Positions 970 to 28,247 of a stretch of DNA of 32,048 nucleotides are shown piece after piece. Position 1 is the stretch's first letter. Each line of letters begins with the position of its first letter. The stretch covers positions 1 to 32,048 of the forward strand of contig CAIVAR010000153.1 of NCBI GenBank assembly GCA_903904005.1, written 5' to 3'. The stretch is from an uncultured Anaeromyxobacter sp. GTDB taxonomy: Bacteria; Myxococcota; Myxococcia; Myxococcales; Anaeromyxobacteraceae. The position numbers and the translations under genes were made by a program. Under the pieces are notes generated by a model, which was not told the origin of the DNA, made no database searches, and was given only the letters and a program-made list of their open reading frames with translations.

Positions 970-1364
970 CAGAGGAACTCGTCGGGCGACTGGGCCTCGA
1001 TCCCCTCCGGGAGCGGCGTGAAGTGCTTCGAGTTGGCGGTCGCGATCACCTGGGCGCCGGACTTCACGGCTACCGCGACGACGTGGCGGTCCTTCTCGTC
1101 GTTCTGCATCGCCGGAGTGAGCAGTTCGTAGCCGGTCACCTCAGCCTCGGGAAAGTGCTCCTCCATCTTGGCGCGTAGCCGCTGGGCCTTGTCGGCCGGC
1201 ATCACGCCGTTCTCCACGAGGTTTAGCTCCACCTCGTCGAGGATCTCTCGGCTCCAGCGGAGCTGGAAGAAGCCACTCGCGGCCGCACGCAGCAAGGTGT
1301 CCCGAAGCGTGAACGGGTAGAGCAGGTTGGAGTCGACGACGACGATGAAGGGCGCGGGGACCAT
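951..1364 (-). CDS. PIN-domain toxin (VapC-like), C terminus frameshifted
   Basis: This 137-residue protein begins VVVDSNLLYPFTLRDTL, with the first catalytic aspartate at the end of strand 1. It continues with a conserved acidic EILDEVELNL helix and NDEKDRHVVAVAVKSGAQVIAT, which supplies the later acidic cluster of the PIN fold. PIN toxins are metal-dependent ribonucleases acting on tRNA, rRNA or mRNA. It follows the antitoxin gene by 18 nt, with GAGG about six bases before its ATG, so the two are co-transcribed. The catalytic core looks complete, but after SPDEFLC the frame changes to SRRAT and stops. The expected helical tail lies downstream in another frame. The toxin may therefore be weakened or inactive, or may have a shortened tail without loss of activity. 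Confidence 0.8.
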   Translation of the reverse strand: MVPAPFIVVVDSNLLYPFTLRDTLLRAAASGFFQLRWSREILDEVELNLVENGVMPADKAQRLRAKMEEHFPEAEVTGYELLTPAMQNDEKDRHVVAVAVKSGAQVIATANSKHFTPLPEGIEAQSPDEFLCSRRAT

Positions 1365-1382
1365 TCGACCTCGCGCCGGCGC

Positions 1383-1880
1383 CTACTTCAGCTCGGGCTC
1401 GTAGCCACCGAACTCCTGCGTCATCAGCGAGAGCTCGCGGAGACCGGCGCGCCGATCCTTGTCGCGCTTCTCCTTGAACGCGAGCACGTCTTCGATCCGG
1501 AGGCGCCGGTGCTTGCCCGTCCTTCGGAAAGGAATGCGCTCCTCGTCAAGGAGCCGGACGAGATACTGGCGCGAGACGTTCAGCAGGTCGGCCGCCTGCT
1601 GCGTCGTCACCTCGCGCCCCACCGGCACGACCGTGACCGAGTCGCCGCTCGCCATGACCTCGGCCACCCGCTCCAGCACATAGAAGAGCGACTCCGGCAG
1701 CGGGATGGAAATCCCGCCGGGACCGACGAGCTGGCACCTCGGCGAGGTTCGCGCCCGCGTGTGGGCGATCCCTTCGAGCGCCTTGGAGAGCGCGACGACC
1801 TGGGCGTGCTGCTCCGGCGGAGCCGAGACGGGCGTCATCCGGCGGATGCGGTCTTCCATCGTGCGGACGACGTGGGCCAC
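1383..1880 (-). CDS. Excisionase-type HTH antitoxin of the PIN pair
   Basis: A 165-residue DNA-binding protein. The C-terminal half holds a MerR/excisionase-type helix-turn-helix (about residues 90-135: EVTTQQAADLLNVSRQYLVR, then GKHRRLRIEDVLAF), the fold used by excisionase-like regulators. The N-terminal region carries a LSKALEGIA helix and a PLPESLFYVLERVAEVMA segment. HTH proteins of this shape directly upstream of a PIN_3-type gene form a known type II toxin-antitoxin arrangement: the protein would neutralise the toxin and repress the pair. I chose GTG at 1880 because GGAGGT (1887-1892 on the plus strand) sits seven bases before it. ATG 1859 is the alternative, and the more upstream ATG at 1934 lies before the promoter-like elements. 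Confidence 0.75.
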   Translation of the reverse strand: MAHVVRTMEDRIRRMTPVSAPPEQHAQVVALSKALEGIAHTRARTSPRCQLVGPGGISIPLPESLFYVLERVAEVMASGDSVTVVPVGREVTTQQAADLLNVSRQYLVRLLDEERIPFRRTGKHRRLRIEDVLAFKEKRDKDRRAGLRELSLMTQEFGGYEPELK

Positions 1881-1899
1881 GGGGTTACCTCCGAGATGG

Positions 1900-1928
1900 A
1901 ACCTAGTCCGTAATCGACCCAAACGCAA
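1900..1928 (-). promoter_or_regulatory. Sigma-70-like promoter for the toxin-antitoxin pair
   Basis: On the minus strand TTGCGT (1923-1928) is followed after exactly 17 bases by TAGGTT (1900-1905). These match four of six positions of TTGACA and the TAnnnT core of the -10 element. Transcription would begin near 1893, immediately before the GGAGGT that serves the antitoxin GTG at 1880, giving a very short leader. The rest of 1929-2045, between this element and livF, shows no gene and no convincing terminator. Confidence 0.4.
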
Positions 1929-2045
1929 CCCCACCCGAAGGCTTGCGTCGCCTCCCGCAGGGTGCTCGACGCGGCCGCGCCTTCGAGCGCGACCTCGCGG
2001 TGCCTGAGGGAGAGTCGAAGCCCGTGCGCCCTTCGCCCCCGCCCC

Positions 2046-2762
2046 TCACTCCCCGAGGTAGGCCTTCCGCACGTCGGGGCTAGCGAGGAGCTCGGCGCCG
2101 CTCCCCTGCATCACGATCGCGCCCGTCTCCAGCACGTACGCGTGGTGCGACACTTGAAGCGCCATGTTGGCGTTCTGCTCGACGAGGAGCAGCGACACCC
2201 CCGCCTCGTTGATCTCCTGGATGACCTGGAAGATGCGATCCACGAACTGCGGTGCGAGCCCCAGCGAAGGCTCGTCGAGGAGCAGGAGCGTGGGGCGGCT
2301 CATGAGCGCGCGGGCCACGGCCAGCATCTGCTGCTCGCCGCCCGACAGGGTGCCGGAGACCTGGGCGCTGCGCTCCTTCAGGATGGGGAAGAGGGCGTAA
2401 GCCCGCTCCCGGTCGGCGTCGATGCCGCTCCGATCGCGCCGGAGGTAGGCGCCGAGGTCGAGGTTCTCCTTCACGGTCAGGTTGAGGAAGATCCCCCGCC
2501 CCTCGGGCGCCTGGGCCACGCCCTTGGCCACGATCGCGTGGGACGGGATGCCGGCGATGGAGCGCCCCTGGAACTCGATGGCGCCGGAGGTGGGGCGGAG
2601 CAGCCCGGAGATGGCCCGCAGGGTGGTGCTCTTCCCGGCGCCGTTCGCGCCGATGAGGGCCACGATCTTCCCGCGGGGGACCTCGAGCGAGATCCCCGAG
2701 AGCGCCCGGATGACGCCGTAGTGGACCACCAGGTCCCGGATCGAGAGCAGGGTTTCGCTCAA
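2046..2762 (-). CDS. livF: Branched-chain amino acid ABC transporter ATPase LivF
   Basis: This 238-residue ABC ATPase is the second nucleotide-binding subunit of a high-affinity leucine/isoleucine/valine importer. Walker A is GANGAGKST (about residues 37-45), the ABC signature is LSGGEQQMLAVARAL, and Walker B is LLLLDEPSLGLAP. The long SLGLAPQFV segment and the final 'KAYLGE' are typical of LivF rather than LivG. It starts at a TTG whose TTGA overlaps the livG stop, so the two subunits are translationally coupled. It is the last gene of livKHMGF. The substrate could be another amino acid, amide or short-chain compound, because sequence alone does not fix Liv-family specificity. Confidence 0.93.
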   Translation of the reverse strand: MSETLLSIRDLVVHYGVIRALSGISLEVPRGKIVALIGANGAGKSTTLRAISGLLRPTSGAIEFQGRSIAGIPSHAIVAKGVAQAPEGRGIFLNLTVKENLDLGAYLRRDRSGIDADRERAYALFPILKERSAQVSGTLSGGEQQMLAVARALMSRPTLLLLDEPSLGLAPQFVDRIFQVIQEINEAGVSLLLVEQNANMALQVSHHAYVLETGAIVMQGSGAELLASPDVRKAYLGE

Positions 2763-3580
2763 CGTGCGTCCCCATCCGCGGCCCGCGGCGGCTTGAGCCG
2801 GAGCTTGCCGTCCCCCAGGTAGGCCTCGATCACCTTGGGATCCCGGCGCACCTCCTCGGGCAGCCCGTGGGCGATGGTCACGCCGTGGTCGAGCACCATG
2901 ACCCGCTCGGAGACCCCCATGACGAGCCGCATGTCGTGCTCGATCACCAGGATGGCGAGGGCGAACCGGTCCCGGACGCGCCGGATGAGCTCCATGAGCG
3001 CCACCTTCTCGGACGCGTTCATCCCCGCCGCCGGCTCGTCCAGGCAGAGGACCTTCGGCCCGGTGGCCAGCGCACGCGCGATCTCGAGCCGCCGCTGCTC
3101 CCCGTAGGGGAGGTTGCGCGCCAGCTCGTCGCGCCGGTGGGAGAGCTCCATCACCGCGAGGAACTCCCCGGCGCGCTCCGCGATGCGCGCCTCCTCGGCG
3201 TCGTGGGTGGGGGTGAGCATCCAGGCCGAGGTGAACCCGCTCCTCGACCCGGCGTGGCAGGCCACCCGCACGTTGTCGAAGGCCGAGAGCTCCTTGAAGA
3301 GGCGCACGTTCTGGAAGGTGCGCGCCACCCCCAGCTCGCAGATCTGGTGCGGGCGCAGGCCGTTCACCCGCCGTCCGGCCACCACGACTTCACCCTCGGT
3401 CGGCGGGTAGACGCCGGTGAGGGCGTTGAAGGCGGTGGTCTTCCCGGCGCCGTTCGGGCCGATGAGCCCGACGAGCTCCCCGCTCCGGAGCGAGAGGTCG
3501 AACCCGGAGAGGGCGGTGAGCCCCCCGAACCGCATGGCCACCCCGCGGGCGTCGAGCACCACGTCGCCGGGCCCGCTCAC
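2759..3580 (-). CDS. livG: Branched-chain amino acid ABC transporter ATPase LivG
   Basis: This 273-residue ABC ATPase pairs with LivF under the LivH/LivM permeases. Walker A is GPNGAGKTT near residues 41-49. The Q-loop region reads GVARTFQNVRLF, a LivG hallmark. The signature is the LivG-type LPYGEQRRLEIARAL, Walker B is VLCLDEPAAGMN, and the H-loop is LVIEHDM. The family's C-terminal 'EEVRRDPKVIEAYLG' is followed by a short basic tail. Its GTG start overlaps the livM stop (GTGA), and its own stop overlaps the TTG of livF. Length and motif order are normal and nothing looks broken. Confidence 0.94.
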   Translation of the reverse strand: MSGPGDVVLDARGVAMRFGGLTALSGFDLSLRSGELVGLIGPNGAGKTTAFNALTGVYPPTEGEVVVAGRRVNGLRPHQICELGVARTFQNVRLFKELSAFDNVRVACHAGSRSGFTSAWMLTPTHDAEEARIAERAGEFLAVMELSHRRDELARNLPYGEQRRLEIARALATGPKVLCLDEPAAGMNASEKVALMELIRRVRDRFALAILVIEHDMRLVMGVSERVMVLDHGVTIAHGLPEEVRRDPKVIEAYLGDGKLRLKPPRAADGDAR

Positions 3581-23059: not shown

Positions 23060-24085
23060 ATGCGCAGGGTCGAGCACCGGCTGCCCCGGCCGAAGCCATC
23101 GCCGTCCTCCCCCGCGCTGACCCCGCTGCAGCTGCGGCTGGCGCTCGCGTCCCGGCTCCTCCGTCACCTGGGATTTGCCGGGGCGGCATGGGCCCGGGGT
23201 GGACCTGGCCTCCGTTTCCATGCCCGGGTCGTCGCCATGTGCACGCGGCTCGCGGCGACCGCCGGAGACCCGGCGACGAGGGTGCTCGCGCTCGAGACCC
23301 TCGCGTTTCCCATGGAGGCCATCCGCTACTTCGAGTTCGGCACGGCCTGGGCATGGGCCGCCGACCGGACGGGGCCGATGCGGGTTCTCGACGTCTCCTC
23401 TCCCCGCCTCTTCCCCCTCCTGCTCGCACGCCACCGCCCCGGGTCGCGATTCGACCTCGTCAATCCGGATGGACGAGATCTCGAGGTCACGGCCAGGTGG
23501 ATGCAAGCGCTCGGTCTCACCTCCTGCGTCCTCCACCGGACCTCGATCGCCGAGACGAAGCTCGAGGCCGGGAGCTACGATCTCGTCACCTCGCTCTCGG
23601 TCCTCGAGCACATCCCCGAGCCCGCGGACCTGGAGGCGGTGGCCCGGATGTGGGGAGCCGTCCGTCCGGGAGGGCGCATGATCCTGACCCTCCCGTGCGC
23701 GAGGGAGTCGTTCGAGGAGTACCTGGACCTCGACGAGTACGGACTCCTCGAGCCCGACGCGAACGGCTTCGTCTTCGGCCAGCGCTTCTACGACGAGGCG
23801 CTCCTCCGCCGGAGGGTCCTCGCGATCTGTGGCAACCCGCGGCGCACCGCGCTGCTCGGCGAACGCACCCCCGGGAGCTTCGTGAAGGACCGGTCGAGGA
23901 AGGTCGCCGGCGATGCCGACCTCGCGCGCGAACCGCTGGCCGCGGCGGTCGAGTATCGACGGTATCCCTCCCTGGAGACGCTCCCCGGGATCGGCGTCCT
24001 CGCGCTCGAATTCGAGAAGCCTCCGGTGCGATCCGCCTCAGCCCGGCAGGCGCTTGAATCCGACCAGCTGCCCCTGCTCCAGTGA
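23060..24085 (+). CDS. Methyltransferase-like protein with atypical SAM motif I
   Basis: A 341-residue protein with a basic, Pro-rich N terminus. The core begins with MRVLDVSSPRLFPLLLA (about residues 107-123) where class I methyltransferases have a Gly-rich 'LDvGcGtG' loop; here it is Ser-Ser-Pro-Arg. FDLVNPDGRD follows as motif II. The later part is standard Methyltransf_11: YDLVTSLSVLEHIPEPAD, then VRPGGRMILTLPC. Ahead of the core is the conserved MEAIRYFEFGTAWAWA helix. The loss of the glycines may mean a changed ligand or a non-methyltransferase role, although a subfamily with this motif could exist. TAGACT lies nine bases before the ATG. Its last 48 bases overlap the convergent GT-GNAT gene. 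Confidence 0.72.
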   Translation: MRRVEHRLPRPKPSPSSPALTPLQLRLALASRLLRHLGFAGAAWARGGPGLRFHARVVAMCTRLAATAGDPATRVLALETLAFPMEAIRYFEFGTAWAWAADRTGPMRVLDVSSPRLFPLLLARHRPGSRFDLVNPDGRDLEVTARWMQALGLTSCVLHRTSIAETKLEAGSYDLVTSLSVLEHIPEPADLEAVARMWGAVRPGGRMILTLPCARESFEEYLDLDEYGLLEPDANGFVFGQRFYDEALLRRRVLAICGNPRRTALLGERTPGSFVKDRSRKVAGDADLAREPLAAAVEYRRYPSLETLPGIGVLALEFEKPPVRSASARQALESDQLPLLQ

Positions 24086-25708
24086 AGGTTCGAACTCGTA
24101 TCCGAGCGAACGGTAGAGATTCACGGCTGCCGTGTTGTCCGGATAGACCTTGAGCCGGATCCGGGGCGCGCCACGGCGCTGCGCCTCCGCGTGAAGGTGG
24201 AGCATCAGCGTCCGGCCGAGCCCCGTGCCGCGCGCGTCCGCGTGGACGGCGATGCCCAGGCTGGGTACTTCGTATCCTCGGTCCCATCCGCGGAGCATGC
24301 CGTACCCGAGGACGACACCCCGGGCGACGGCCACGCAGTAGAGGTCGAGTCCAGAGTGGGCGCAGCGTGCCTCCGCCTCGACCCGCGTGAACGGGTGTGG
24401 ATGGAAGCGCTCTCCCTCTCCCGTGGCGGCCAGATGGTCGAAGAAGGTGGCCAGGGGGCTCTCCAGGCCCGGACCCACCCGGAGCACCTTCAGCTGTCCC
24501 GTCTCGATCATCCCGCCTCCGGGCGAGGTGTGGATCCCCATGACGTTCGCGTAGTCGACCGCAACCTCTCTCCATCCGCGTCGACTCAGGCGCATTCGCT
24601 GTTCGAGTGCCCGGGCCTTGAACTGCGCGTACCCGCCCTCGAGCTCCCGGAGCGCACGCGCCAGGGAGGCGGGATCACGCGGATCGAACCAGAGGACTTC
24701 CCCTCCCACGCGCTCCATCATCTCCCGCATCACCGGGATGTCCGACACGACCGCCGGGATTCCCCTCTCGAGCGCCTCCCACACCGGGAAGCTCCCCCCT
24801 CCCTCGGCCAGGGTTGGCATCACGACGGCCCAGGCGCCCTCCAGGATCGCGTAGTAGTCGGGATCGTCGACGTACCCGATGGCGAAGAGGGTCTCGTCGG
24901 CCACGAGGCCGCCACGCTCCGCCAGCCCGCGCAGCTCCTCGGCTCGAAGGGACTGGCCTCGGTAGATGTCCGTCCCATCCCCCGTGAGCACGAGGGGATG
25001 GCGGGACGCCACGGCTTCCGCAGCGGCGAGCACGACCTCGTGGTTCTTGTGGCGCGAGTGGTTGGCCGGACAGAGCAGGTAGTCGCGGCCGGAGAATGGC
25101 CAGGCGCGGGTCGTCGGGGGCCGGGCGGGAACGCCGTGCTGGCCCGACAGGGGAATGACCGAGACCCTTCCGGCCGGGATCCCGAAGTGTCGGCGGAGCA
25201 GGGCATCGGTGACCCTCGAGCTGACGGCGATTCGCGCGTCCGACCGGAGCCAGGTCTCCAGGATCTTCCGCTCTGCCCCCGCCCCTCCGGGGAACCAGCG
25301 GGGAAACTCGATCATGATGAGGTCGTGGAGGGAACCGACGACCTTGTGGGCGAGCCCGCGCGGGATCCGGTGGCGGTGCAGCCAGGGGAACCAGGCGAGA
25401 TCGCAGTCCTCGAGGACCTTTCCGGAAACGTCGATCCGGTTGGGGTGGGTCCGCAGGATGAAGTTGAGCGGCCCGGCCCCGGGGATCCCGGCCAGGAGCG
25501 TTCGTCCGCGCCAGGCCTGGCTGGGGGGAACGTCGACGAACCCGACATCCATCCCGGCGAGAAGCCCGCGGTAACGCGTCAGCGCGTCGCCGCTGCTCAC
25601 CACCTCGAACGACAGCCCGGGGATCTCGGCCAGCCCGCGGAGCATCTCGGCGGTGAATCGAACCCCGCCGCCGAGGTTGGCCACGTAGTCGACGATCCGG
25701 ATCTTCAC
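24038..25708 (-). CDS. Glycosyltransferase-GNAT acetyltransferase fusion
   Basis: A 556-residue two-domain protein. Residues 1-395 form a GT-B, GT4-type glycosyltransferase: VANLGGGVRFTAEML, VGSLHDLIMIEFPRWFP, LLCPANHSRHKNHEVVL, and the donor site LAEGGGSFPVWEALERGIPAVVSD at about 300-323. Residues 400-556 form a GNAT acyltransferase: FHPHPFT, LGYGMLRGWD, VPSLGIAVHADARGTGLGRTLM with the acetyl-CoA P-loop, then DNTAAVNLYRSLGYE. The gene starts at GTG 25708, one base after the aminotransferase stop, so an amino sugar could be made, attached and acetylated by consecutive products. Met400 (ATG 24511) has GGAGG four bases upstream exactly at the junction, so a free GNAT may also be made. Confidence 0.85.
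   Translation of the reverse strand: MKIRIVDYVANLGGGVRFTAEMLRGLAEIPGLSFEVVSSGDALTRYRGLLAGMDVGFVDVPPSQAWRGRTLLAGIPGAGPLNFILRTHPNRIDVSGKVLEDCDLAWFPWLHRHRIPRGLAHKVVGSLHDLIMIEFPRWFPGGAGAERKILETWLRSDARIAVSSRVTDALLRRHFGIPAGRVSVIPLSGQHGVPARPPTTRAWPFSGRDYLLCPANHSRHKNHEVVLAAAEAVASRHPLVLTGDGTDIYRGQSLRAEELRGLAERGGLVADETLFAIGYVDDPDYYAILEGAWAVVMPTLAEGGGSFPVWEALERGIPAVVSDIPVMREMMERVGGEVLWFDPRDPASLARALRELEGGYAQFKARALEQRMRLSRRGWREVAVDYANVMGIHTSPGGGMIETGQLKVLRVGPGLESPLATFFDHLAATGEGERFHPHPFTRVEAEARCAHSGLDLYCVAVARGVVLGYGMLRGWDRGYEVPSLGIAVHADARGTGLGRTLMLHLHAEAQRRGAPRIRLKVYPDNTAAVNLYRSLGYEFEPSLEQGQLVGFKRLPG
24516..24520 (-). promoter_or_regulatory. Internal ribosome-binding site at the GT-GNAT junction
   Basis: CCTCC on the plus strand gives GGAGG on the minus strand, followed by GCGG and an in-frame ATG at 24511-24509. 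That ATG is Met400, the first residue of the GNAT domain. The four-base spacer is slightly short for an ideal site. The same bases encode a Pro-Gly-Gly-Gly linker, so the match could be a by-product of linker coding. Confidence 0.4.
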
Positions 25709-25709
25709 G

Positions 25710-26825
25710 TCAGCGGACTCCGTCCCTCACCAGGGACGCCACCCGGTCGACGTCGGAGTCGGCCAGCCGGTTATAAGTGGGAAGGTTGATCCCCGATGCC
25801 CCGAGACGGTCCGTCTCGGGCAGGTCCTCGCCTCGGAGCCCCGACTGTTCCCGGTACGGCGGGAGGCGATGGACGGGAACGAAGAAGGGCCGGGTGTCGA
25901 CGCCGTGCTCCTGGAGCCAGGCCATGGCGCCGTCGCGCGAGCGTCCGTAGGCCTCCTCCTCGACCGTGATGCAGAAGAGCCATGGAGCCGGCTCCGCCCA
26001 CGGCGCCGTGGGCTGGAAGCCGATGCCGGGGATGTCCCGCAGGGCTTCCCGGTACCGGGCGAAGATGACCCTGCGACGCGCGACGATCTCCTCGGCCCGC
26101 TCCACCTGCGCGCAGAGGATCGCGCAGGCAAGGTTGGTGATCCGATAGTTGTAGCCCGTGATCGGGAAGAAGTAGCGCCGGTCCGGATCCACGCCCTGTC
26201 CACGGAGGAGCCGCGCCCGCTTCTCCAGGGCCGGATCGTCGAGGGTGACCGCGCCGCCCTCTCCGGAGGTGAGGAGCTTGTTCCCGTAGAAGGAGAAGAC
26301 CCCGATCCGCCCGAGCCCTCCGACGGCGCGCCCCCGGTACCGGGCCAGGTGGGCCTCGGCCGCATCCTCCACCACCCAGAGTCCGTGCGTGGCCGCGATC
26401 CGGTTGATGGCGTCCATGTCGGCCGGGTGGCCGTACAGGTGCACCGGGATGATGCCCTTCGTCCTCGGCGTGATCGCGCTCTCCATCCGCGCCGGGTCGA
26501 TGCACCAGGTGTGCGGGTCGACGTCGACGAAGACGGGCTCGGCCCCGCAGTAGCGAACCGCGTTGGCCGTGGCGATGTAGGTGAGGGACGGAACGAGAAC
26601 CTCGTCGCCGGGACGGAGGTCCAGCGTCAGGAGTGCGAGGTGGAGGGCGAGCGTCCCGTTCGTGACACCGATCGCCGACCTCGTTCCGGCCAGCCGGGCG
26701 AAGTCGGCCTCGAACCGCCCCACGAACGGCCCCGTCGCGGAGATCCAGGAGCTCCGCAGCGCCTCGAGGACGTACCGCTCCTCGTTCCCCGACAGATCGG
26801 GTTCGGCCACGGGGATGTTCTTCAT
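25710..26825 (-). CDS. DegT/DnrJ/EryC1-type sugar aminotransferase (perosamine synthase-like)
   Basis: A 371-residue PLP-dependent aminotransferase that would convert a nucleotide-linked keto-sugar to an amino sugar. Residues 1-40 read IPVAEPDLSGNEERYVL with SSWISATGPFV. The PLP phosphate region is GVTNGTLALHLAL. VVEDAAEAHLA carries D154 for the pyridine nitrogen, and FSFYGNKLLTSGEGG carries the Schiff-base K183. The EDAAEAH form and SSWISATGP start resemble GDP-perosamine synthases and other 4-amino-4,6-dideoxysugar enzymes. No 4,6-dehydratase is in the window. Its stop is one base before the GT-GNAT gene. The flippase end lies 33 bases upstream, so all three may form one minus-strand unit. 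Confidence 0.87.
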   Translation of the reverse strand: MKNIPVAEPDLSGNEERYVLEALRSSWISATGPFVGRFEADFARLAGTRSAIGVTNGTLALHLALLTLDLRPGDEVLVPSLTYIATANAVRYCGAEPVFVDVDPHTWCIDPARMESAITPRTKGIIPVHLYGHPADMDAINRIAATHGLWVVEDAAEAHLARYRGRAVGGLGRIGVFSFYGNKLLTSGEGGAVTLDDPALEKRARLLRGQGVDPDRRYFFPITGYNYRITNLACAILCAQVERAEEIVARRRVIFARYREALRDIPGIGFQPTAPWAEPAPWLFCITVEEEAYGRSRDGAMAWLQEHGVDTRPFFVPVHRLPPYREQSGLRGEDLPETDRLGASGINLPTYNRLADSDVDRVASLVRDGVR

Positions 26826-26858: not shown

Positions 26859-28247
26859 CTATCCCGGCTGCGTACGCGGCACGAGCAGGGGAGCCGCGAG
26901 GAGGGGCAGGATCCAGGACGAGACCAGGATCGAGAAGGCTGCGCCGCCCACCAGCGCCCCGACGACGCCCAGCCCGGGCGCCAGCCACCAGGTCAGGGCG
27001 ATGGTGGTCAGCCCGTTCGAGAGCACCAGCCCCACGAGGGGCCAGAACCGGTCCATGATCCAGAGCAGCTCCACGTAGATGGTTCCCCAGACCGCCGCCA
27101 CGAGCAGTCCGGCCATGGCGGCCCAGACGGTCCATCCGTACGTGATGTCGGGGCGGCGGAGCCACAGGAGGAGAACGCGATCTCCGAGGAGAACGAGCCC
27201 CAGTCCGCCCGCGACGGCGAGGGCCATCCGGAAGTTCCGGAGGTGGCGGAAGGCCCGAAGGGCCCAGGCGCGATCTCCCCGCTCGAAGGCCTCGCGAAGG
27301 GGAGGCACGAAGGAGGCCGTTCCCAGCTGGATGAGGCTCGCGAGCACGAGGTACAGGCGGAGGGCGATGGAGTAGTCCGCCACGACGGCGAGCCCGCTCC
27401 GCTGGGCCAGGATGAGCACCTGGGTCTCGTTCACGGTGAGCGCCCCGAGCTGGAAGAGGAAGATGGGAAGGGATCGCGCCGCCAGCGCCTGGAACGCCTG
27501 GCGCGACACGTGGCGAAACTGCACGCGGACCCAGGGCAGGACCTTGCGCGCGAAGGCGAGTGCGAGCGCCGCCGGAAGCGTGCCCGCCACCGAGAGGCAG
27601 AGGACCAGCACCGGCATGGACGCCCGGAGCGTCACGGCCACCACCAGGGCGGCCAGCCCGACGAGCGATCCCAGGAGCGCGAAGACGTTCGCGACGTAGG
27701 TCTTCTGGTACCCGGCGTACAGCTGTGGAACGGCCCCGAGGGGAAGTCCCACCACGAGCGCGGCAGCAGCGGCCGCCACGCTCCATCGCACCGTCGCCTC
27801 GTCCACCTGGCCCCGCACCCCGAGGAACTGGGACCACGGGACGAGCGGGGTCGCGATCGCGAGCACCACCGCGAGCAGCGAGGCGGTGACGGTGAGGGCC
27901 CCGATCGCGGTGGAGAAGTACTCCCGCGCCGCCTCCCGATCCTCCCGCCCGTGGGCCGCGGAGATCAGGTTGAGGAGCCCGCCGGACAGGCCGAAGTCGA
28001 AGAGGGTGGTCCAGGTCACGACGGTGGTGATGGCGGTCCAGAGCCCGAATCGCTCCTTCCCCAGGTACCCGAGCAGCAGCGGGACCGTGACCAGGCCCGC
28101 CAGCACGCCCGCGCCCCTCACGCCCATGCTGGTGACCGTGGTGAGCACGATCCGTCGGTAGCGCTCGTCCGATCGCCCCTCGGGTGTCGACGTGTCGAAC
28201 GGTCGCCAGCGGGCCACCGTTCGGATCTGGCGGAGGTAGGGAAGCAC
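26859..28247 (-). CDS. Polysaccharide flippase (Wzx/MATE-like), second copy
   Basis: A 462-residue membrane protein with about 12-14 hydrophobic stretches. It carries the LGKERFGLWTAITTVVTWTTLFDFGLSGG signature of Wzx-like polysaccharide exporters. It is a paralogue of the protein at 19372-20781: FDTSTPEGRSDERYRRIVLT aligns with FDESTAEGRSQERYRRIVLS, and equal-length helical repeats follow, including IFLFQLGALTVNETQVLIL against LYLFQLGSLLVNQSQRPIL. Overall identity is clearly below that of a recent duplication. It begins the minus-strand unit flippase, aminotransferase, GT-GNAT. The start at 28247 sits 58 bases from the divergent glycosyltransferase. Confidence 0.85.
   Translation of the reverse strand: MLPYLRQIRTVARWRPFDTSTPEGRSDERYRRIVLTTVTSMGVRGAGVLAGLVTVPLLLGYLGKERFGLWTAITTVVTWTTLFDFGLSGGLLNLISAAHGREDREAAREYFSTAIGALTVTASLLAVVLAIATPLVPWSQFLGVRGQVDEATVRWSVAAAAAALVVGLPLGAVPQLYAGYQKTYVANVFALLGSLVGLAALVVAVTLRASMPVLVLCLSVAGTLPAALALAFARKVLPWVRVQFRHVSRQAFQALAARSLPIFLFQLGALTVNETQVLILAQRSGLAVVADYSIALRLYLVLASLIQLGTASFVPPLREAFERGDRAWALRAFRHLRNFRMALAVAGGLGLVLLGDRVLLLWLRRPDITYGWTVWAAMAGLLVAAVWGTIYVELLWIMDRFWPLVGLVLSNGLTTIALTWWLAPGLGVVGALVGGAAFSILVSSWILPLLAAPLLVPRTQPG

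Follow-up and report, generated by a model that had tools for sequence, protein, structure and literature searches.

Proteins and metabolites are frequent substrates of GNAT domains. Sugars can also be their substrates, as in PseH and WecD, which transfer an acetyl group to the amine at C4 of a nucleotide-linked 4-amino-6-deoxy sugar (PMC4363471). N-acetylation of amino sugars has also been found joined to sugar transfer within a single protein. The mimivirus protein L142 combines an N-acetyltransferase for the 4-amino sugar of the aminotransferase L136 with a putative glycosyltransferase (GT) that is thought to transfer that 4-amino sugar, and some strains encode the two parts separately (PMC9614988, PMC10117803). 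The bifunctional PglB of Neisseria couples N-acetylation of a UDP-4-amino sugar to phosphosugar transfer (PMC6959607).

The window analysed here, a 32,048 nucleotide stretch of contig CAIVAR010000153.1 from an uncultured Anaeromyxobacter sp., encodes a protein that resembles L142 in placing a predicted amino-sugar acetyltransferase and a sugar transferase in one chain. The architectures differ, however. In L142 the acetyltransferase is PglB-like and N-terminal, the transferase is a predicted type 2 GT and the sugar is UDP-viosamine, while in the window protein a GNAT domain forms the C-terminus of a GT4 enzyme. Neisseria PglB is a phosphoglycosyltransferase and not a GNAT. PseH and WecD are stand-alone proteins, whereas the window GNAT is fused and scores far below their NCBIfam cut-offs (20.6 of 93.1 for PseH and 15.9 of 195.1 for WecD). 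The joining of an acetyltransferase to a sugar transferase is already known; what is new is the attachment of a GNAT from an unnamed family to the C-terminus of a GT4 enzyme, and the range of fusions formed by that family. No account of a GNAT acting on perosamine, or of a GT-GNAT fusion, was found in the open-access literature, a result that does not prove their absence. The explanation we prefer, with a probability of roughly three in four, is that the gene is a derived fusion of GT4 and a GNAT N-acyltransferase within a surface-polysaccharide cluster, where an aminotransferase would make an amino sugar that one polypeptide then acylates and transfers.

The fusion gene and its domains

The fusion gene (24038..25708, minus strand) encodes 556 amino acids from a GTG start. 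An earlier note on this DNA had proposed that a GT4 enzyme and a GNAT acyltransferase share one open frame, and Pfam recovers both domains within these 556 codons. The GT4 (GT-B) domain, residues 1–393 (24530..25708, minus strand), exceeds the gathering scores of PF13439 (residues 13–186, 40.0 against a cut-off of 28.5), PF13692 (residues 211–356, 50.6 against 27) and PF00534 (45.8 against 26.4). At the site of the canonical EX7E motif the sequence reads E302-GGGSFPVW-E311, an EX8E variant that also occurs in the homologues of genomes G003 and G019. Free homologues of the GT, with 48–55% identity, stop at the point equivalent to the end of this domain. The GNAT domain (24038..24511, minus strand) matches PF13508 and PF00583, the latter over residues 437–537 at 8.2e-16 with a score of 58.8 against a cut-off of 20.7. 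The linker comprises residues 394–405 (TSPGGGMIETGQ; 24494..24529, minus strand).

An AlphaFold model of the GNAT part, built on an alignment of 20 homologues, has a pLDDT of 90.6, with the nine linker residues 394–402 falling below 50 ahead of the first GNAT strand. Foldseek searches with this model returned matches to GNATs with E down to 2.5e-9. A model of the full-length protein shows a good fold until approximately residue 393, where the GT domain ends, but its GNAT half reaches a pLDDT of only about 40 because its alignment holds few GNATs, and it is consequently uninformative on the mutual orientation of the domains. Mixed GT and GNAT alignments (A2–A4), in which the GT-only rows were misaligned, were left out of the folding.

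The hallmarks of a GNAT are an R/Q-x-x-G-x-G/A loop that binds acyl-CoA and a Tyr or Ser general acid. A GNAT domain without acyl-CoA binding residues would have refuted the reading in the earlier note, but the alignment contains both features: the pyrophosphate loop R493-G-T-G-L-G498 (24215..24232, minus strand), conserved in most rows, and Tyr532 (24113..24115, minus strand), which is invariant in the 20 homologues and a candidate general acid. Its position was compared with that reported for Tyr138 of PseH (PMC4363471). The segment FHPHP is nearly invariant in the family, as is the motif YGMLRGWDxGY (residues 469–479, 24272..24304, minus strand) across the 20 homologues, and both could possibly contribute to sugar binding. 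Among solved structures it is generic GNATs, and not WecD or PseH, that come closest.

Origin of the fusion

The same GT4-GNAT fusion is present in a second uncultured Anaeromyxobacter bin, G003 (contig C82, CAIOAK010000082.1), with 87% amino acid identity over the full length and no gaps. Its presence in this second bin rules out an assembly error. G003 was the sole other genome found with this architecture, and plasmid records gave only GT4 matches, all below 60% identity, and not the fusion. The closest GNAT, 66% identical, is a free gene lying directly after an aminotransferase (AT) in A. terrae SG22 (NZ_JALCYY010000009.1, L050). This AT is 78–79% identical to that of the window, and the A. 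terrae GNAT is unfused; no homologue of the window GT was found in the SG22 genome at E 1e-40. In the tree the two GT-linked GNAT domains group together (100/96), with the free A. terrae GNAT as their sister (98/94). As the closest relative of these domains is unfused and immediately follows an AT, the sequence comparison identifies the fusion as derived, and it also places the event before the split of the source genome and G003. The comparison of split and fused genes suggested in the earlier note found free GNATs in most loci and free GT homologues in G009, G014, G017, G019 and on contig C104 of G003, beside the fusion shared with G003.

At the joint the window gene reads TCG CCC GGA GGC GGG ATG ATC GAG. 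Exactly as previously described, a Shine-Dalgarno-like GGAGG (24516..24520, minus strand) that spans the Gly-Gly codons GGA GGC is followed by CGGG and then by the ATG of Met400 (24509..24511, minus strand), giving a spacing of 4 bases. The corresponding sequence in G003 is TCG CCC GGA GGC GGG CGG ATC GAG. The earlier note's reading would be refuted by homologues that always carry the fusion and lack GGAGG/Met at the joint; in this one comparison of two genomes the fused homologue has retained GGAGG but has Arg in place of the start codon, so the internal start is not conserved between them, which goes most of the way towards refuting dual translation.

A possible though doubtful source of the motif is the fusion event itself: the stop codon of the GT would have been lost, leaving GGAGG and Met400 as the disused start of a formerly free GNAT. 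This fits with the GNAT being ancestrally a free gene beside the AT, with a linker of just ~12 residues in which the position of Met400 would suit the start of a free GNAT, and with the survival of GGAGG in G003. GGAGG is also two Gly codons, however, and the codon GGA is retained at 11 of 16 Gly sites between the two genes anyway. Of the fourfold-degenerate sites, 67 of 313 differ over the whole gene, and the joint shows the same 21%, with 3 of 14. With GGA kept this often and synonymous divergence at the joint no more than average, the retention of GGAGG is what protein conservation alone would produce. In the free A. terrae gene the start codon is a TTG or ATG that follows the AT, at a different site from the joint, and the two genomes are compatible with either Met or Arg as the ancestral residue. 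It is also possible that a plain coincidence of Gly codons explains GGAGG at the joint. From these comparisons the motif looks like a chance occurrence or a leftover, and not like a conserved start site.

The GNAT family and its partner

When 84,980 species genomes were scanned with the GNAT alignment, 20 loci emerged, and the family as a whole ranges over Myxococcota, Pseudomonadota, Cyanobacteriota, Chloroflexota, Verrucomicrobiota, Planctomycetota and Actinomycetota. None of the curated NCBIfam models names it. Genomes from the classes of L064 and L053 provided few additional members. One locus, L068, a weak hit with 27% identity and no AT, is probably an unrelated GNAT.

In 18 of the 20 loci (18 of 19 without L068) a DegT-type AT is found no more than 2.6 kb from the GNAT, and in 13 of the 20 the aligned AT ends at most 66 bp away. 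No AT is nearby in L055. None of eight unrelated GNAT controls had an AT nearby, although the control flanks covered only 1.5 kb against 2.6 kb for the family. The GNAT is a free gene in most loci, including L051, where GT, AT and GNAT are three separate adjoining genes. The GNAT also directly follows an AT on an IMG/VR contig (L108). GNAT-GT fusions occur in three Verrucomicrobiota loci (L061, L063 and L064), and an AT-GNAT fusion in L114. On contig C104 of G003 (L033/L066) a GNAT-AT fusion of 569 amino acids is followed by a free GT that is 54% identical to the window GT; the placement of L066 in the tree is unsure because its branch is very long. The gene immediately behind the AT in G019 encodes a sugar acetyltransferase of the TIGR03570 NeuD/PglB/VioB type (184.6 bits, cut-off 160.8), and the gap that follows the AT in G017 matches this gene in size.

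Across loci, judged by gene neighbourhood, the partner of the GNAT is the AT rather than the GT. Since the GNAT goes with the AT, the amino sugar made by the AT is likely to be its acyl acceptor, as the earlier note had suggested. Fusions to both pathway neighbours, and the occupation of this position by an unrelated sugar N-acetyltransferase, are what would be expected if the GNAT acylates the AT product. An unlikely alternative is that the GNAT has another target, such as a protein, a polyamine or a sugar hydroxyl, and that its neighbourhood with the GT is accidental. The GNAT superfamily is promiscuous, and the top structural and sequence matches of this domain are YpeA, RimI and PAT-like enzymes, but such a target would not account for an AT linkage that is near-constant across phyla, for fusion to the AT in both orders, or for the replacement of the GNAT by a NeuD/VioB-type enzyme in G019. 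Returning to acylation of an amino sugar, we consider the odds to be a little better than even that this uncharacterised family, recognisable by YGMLRGWDxGY, is a dedicated N-acyltransferase for DegT-made 4-amino sugars whose fusion to either AT or GT, in both orders, suggests that handover of the acylated nucleotide sugar favours tethering. This gives a testable function to a family that curated models leave unnamed.

Several further observations concern the family's settings. In G003 a single bacterium holds two amino-sugar modules that differ in their fusions, GT-GNAT in one and GNAT-AT with a free GT in the other. Family members in L052, L053 and L056 lie beside NeuB-like synthases, which suggests nonulosonate-type pathways with unusual steps, and because such genes adjoin it there the substrate of the family probably varies. 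L053 also contains a xylose-isomerase-like TIM-barrel protein and an AT with an N-terminal CBS-like domain. Relatives of the GNAT are found on contigs of the IMG/VR viral collection (L105–L108), one of which is 459 kb long.

A proposed but unlikely translation start at the joint

The frequency of similar motifs was determined in ~263 kb of sampled contigs of the source genome (69% GC), with genes called by a GC-frame heuristic. GGAGG lies 4–9 nt upstream of 17 of 970 internal in-frame ATGs, and 16 of 170 genes contain at least one such ATG. Synonymous shuffling gave a mean of 13.75, with a range of 9–20, against the 17 observed, and thus no excess of GGAGG before internal ATGs in this sample. 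The only notable aspect of the motif is its position at the joint.

The earlier note had proposed that one gene could give both a tethered and a soluble acetyltransferase, with GGAGG-ATG as a working internal start and products of ~60 kDa (fusion) and ~17 kDa (GNAT); despite GGAGG, a 4 nt spacing and ATG within a disordered linker just ahead of the GNAT fold, the sequence comparison makes this very unlikely, because CGG replaces the start in the sole other fused homologue, where the nearest in-frame candidate after the joint is a GTG 28 bases past GGAGG, because Met400 is one of only two Met codons lost in G003 while 10 of 12 are retained, and because synonymous constraint is not raised at the joint, the motif occurs at the shuffled rate and a spacing of 4 nt is short. 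For a Shine-Dalgarno-like motif in a GC-rich linker, reading it as a start site needs a second genome.

The aminotransferase and its predicted sugar

The gene ahead of the fusion (25710..26825, minus strand) encodes a DegT/DnrJ/EryC1/StrS sugar aminotransferase (PF01041, 7.5e-125) that is perosamine-synthase-like. Its stop codon and the GTG start of the fusion gene are one base apart, in agreement with the earlier note. Its top three PDB matches, and closest solved relatives, are the perosamine synthetases 3bn1, 3dr7 and 3dr4 (E 1e-105 to 1e-106, nearly full length). It falls below every curated equivalog cut-off (330.4 of 420 for LegC), which is why its product is not fixed by these scores. 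GDP-mannose 4,6-dehydratase (Gmd) is the source of GDP-4-keto-6-deoxymannose. Gmd adjoins AT and GT in G009 and G014, lies near the AT-GNAT pair in L054, L057, L058, L062 and L067, and is present in all family members tested, the source genome included. From this co-occurrence and the PDB matches the product is probably a nucleotide-linked 4-amino-6-deoxyhexose, with GDP-perosamine favoured. Upstream of the AT is a Wzx-like polysaccharide flippase (26859..28247, minus strand; PF01943, 7.5e-15), and flippase-like frames also accompany AT and acyltransferase in G003, G017, G019 and G020.

In the pathway that we propose for this soil bacterium, the AT would aminate C4 of a nucleotide-linked 4-keto-6-deoxyhexose, most likely to give GDP-perosamine. 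The GNAT domain would N-acylate this amine with acyl-CoA as donor, the GT4 domain would move the acylated sugar onto a growing chain, and the neighbouring Wzx would export the chain. The fusion protein would be produced as a single polypeptide, and the covalent tether may hold acylation and transfer together. That the GNAT has repeatedly been joined to one or the other of its pathway neighbours leads us to predict a coupling between three steps on 4-amino-6-deoxy sugars, namely their amination, N-acylation and transfer.

The Gmd gene of the source genome lies outside the window, on contig C104 of G000 (~1357–3381, minus strand; L089, L090), and is split by an in-frame, intein-like insert. The insert begins with Cys, ends with His-Asn before Ser and contains two LAGLIDADG-like motifs. 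The Gmd of the congener G001 shows the same split match, and Gmd is uninterrupted in G002 and G003. Within the window, a methyltransferase-like gene (23060–24085, plus strand) is convergent with the fusion gene and overlaps its 3′ end by 48 bases; in the open frames of G003 the overlap is ~20.
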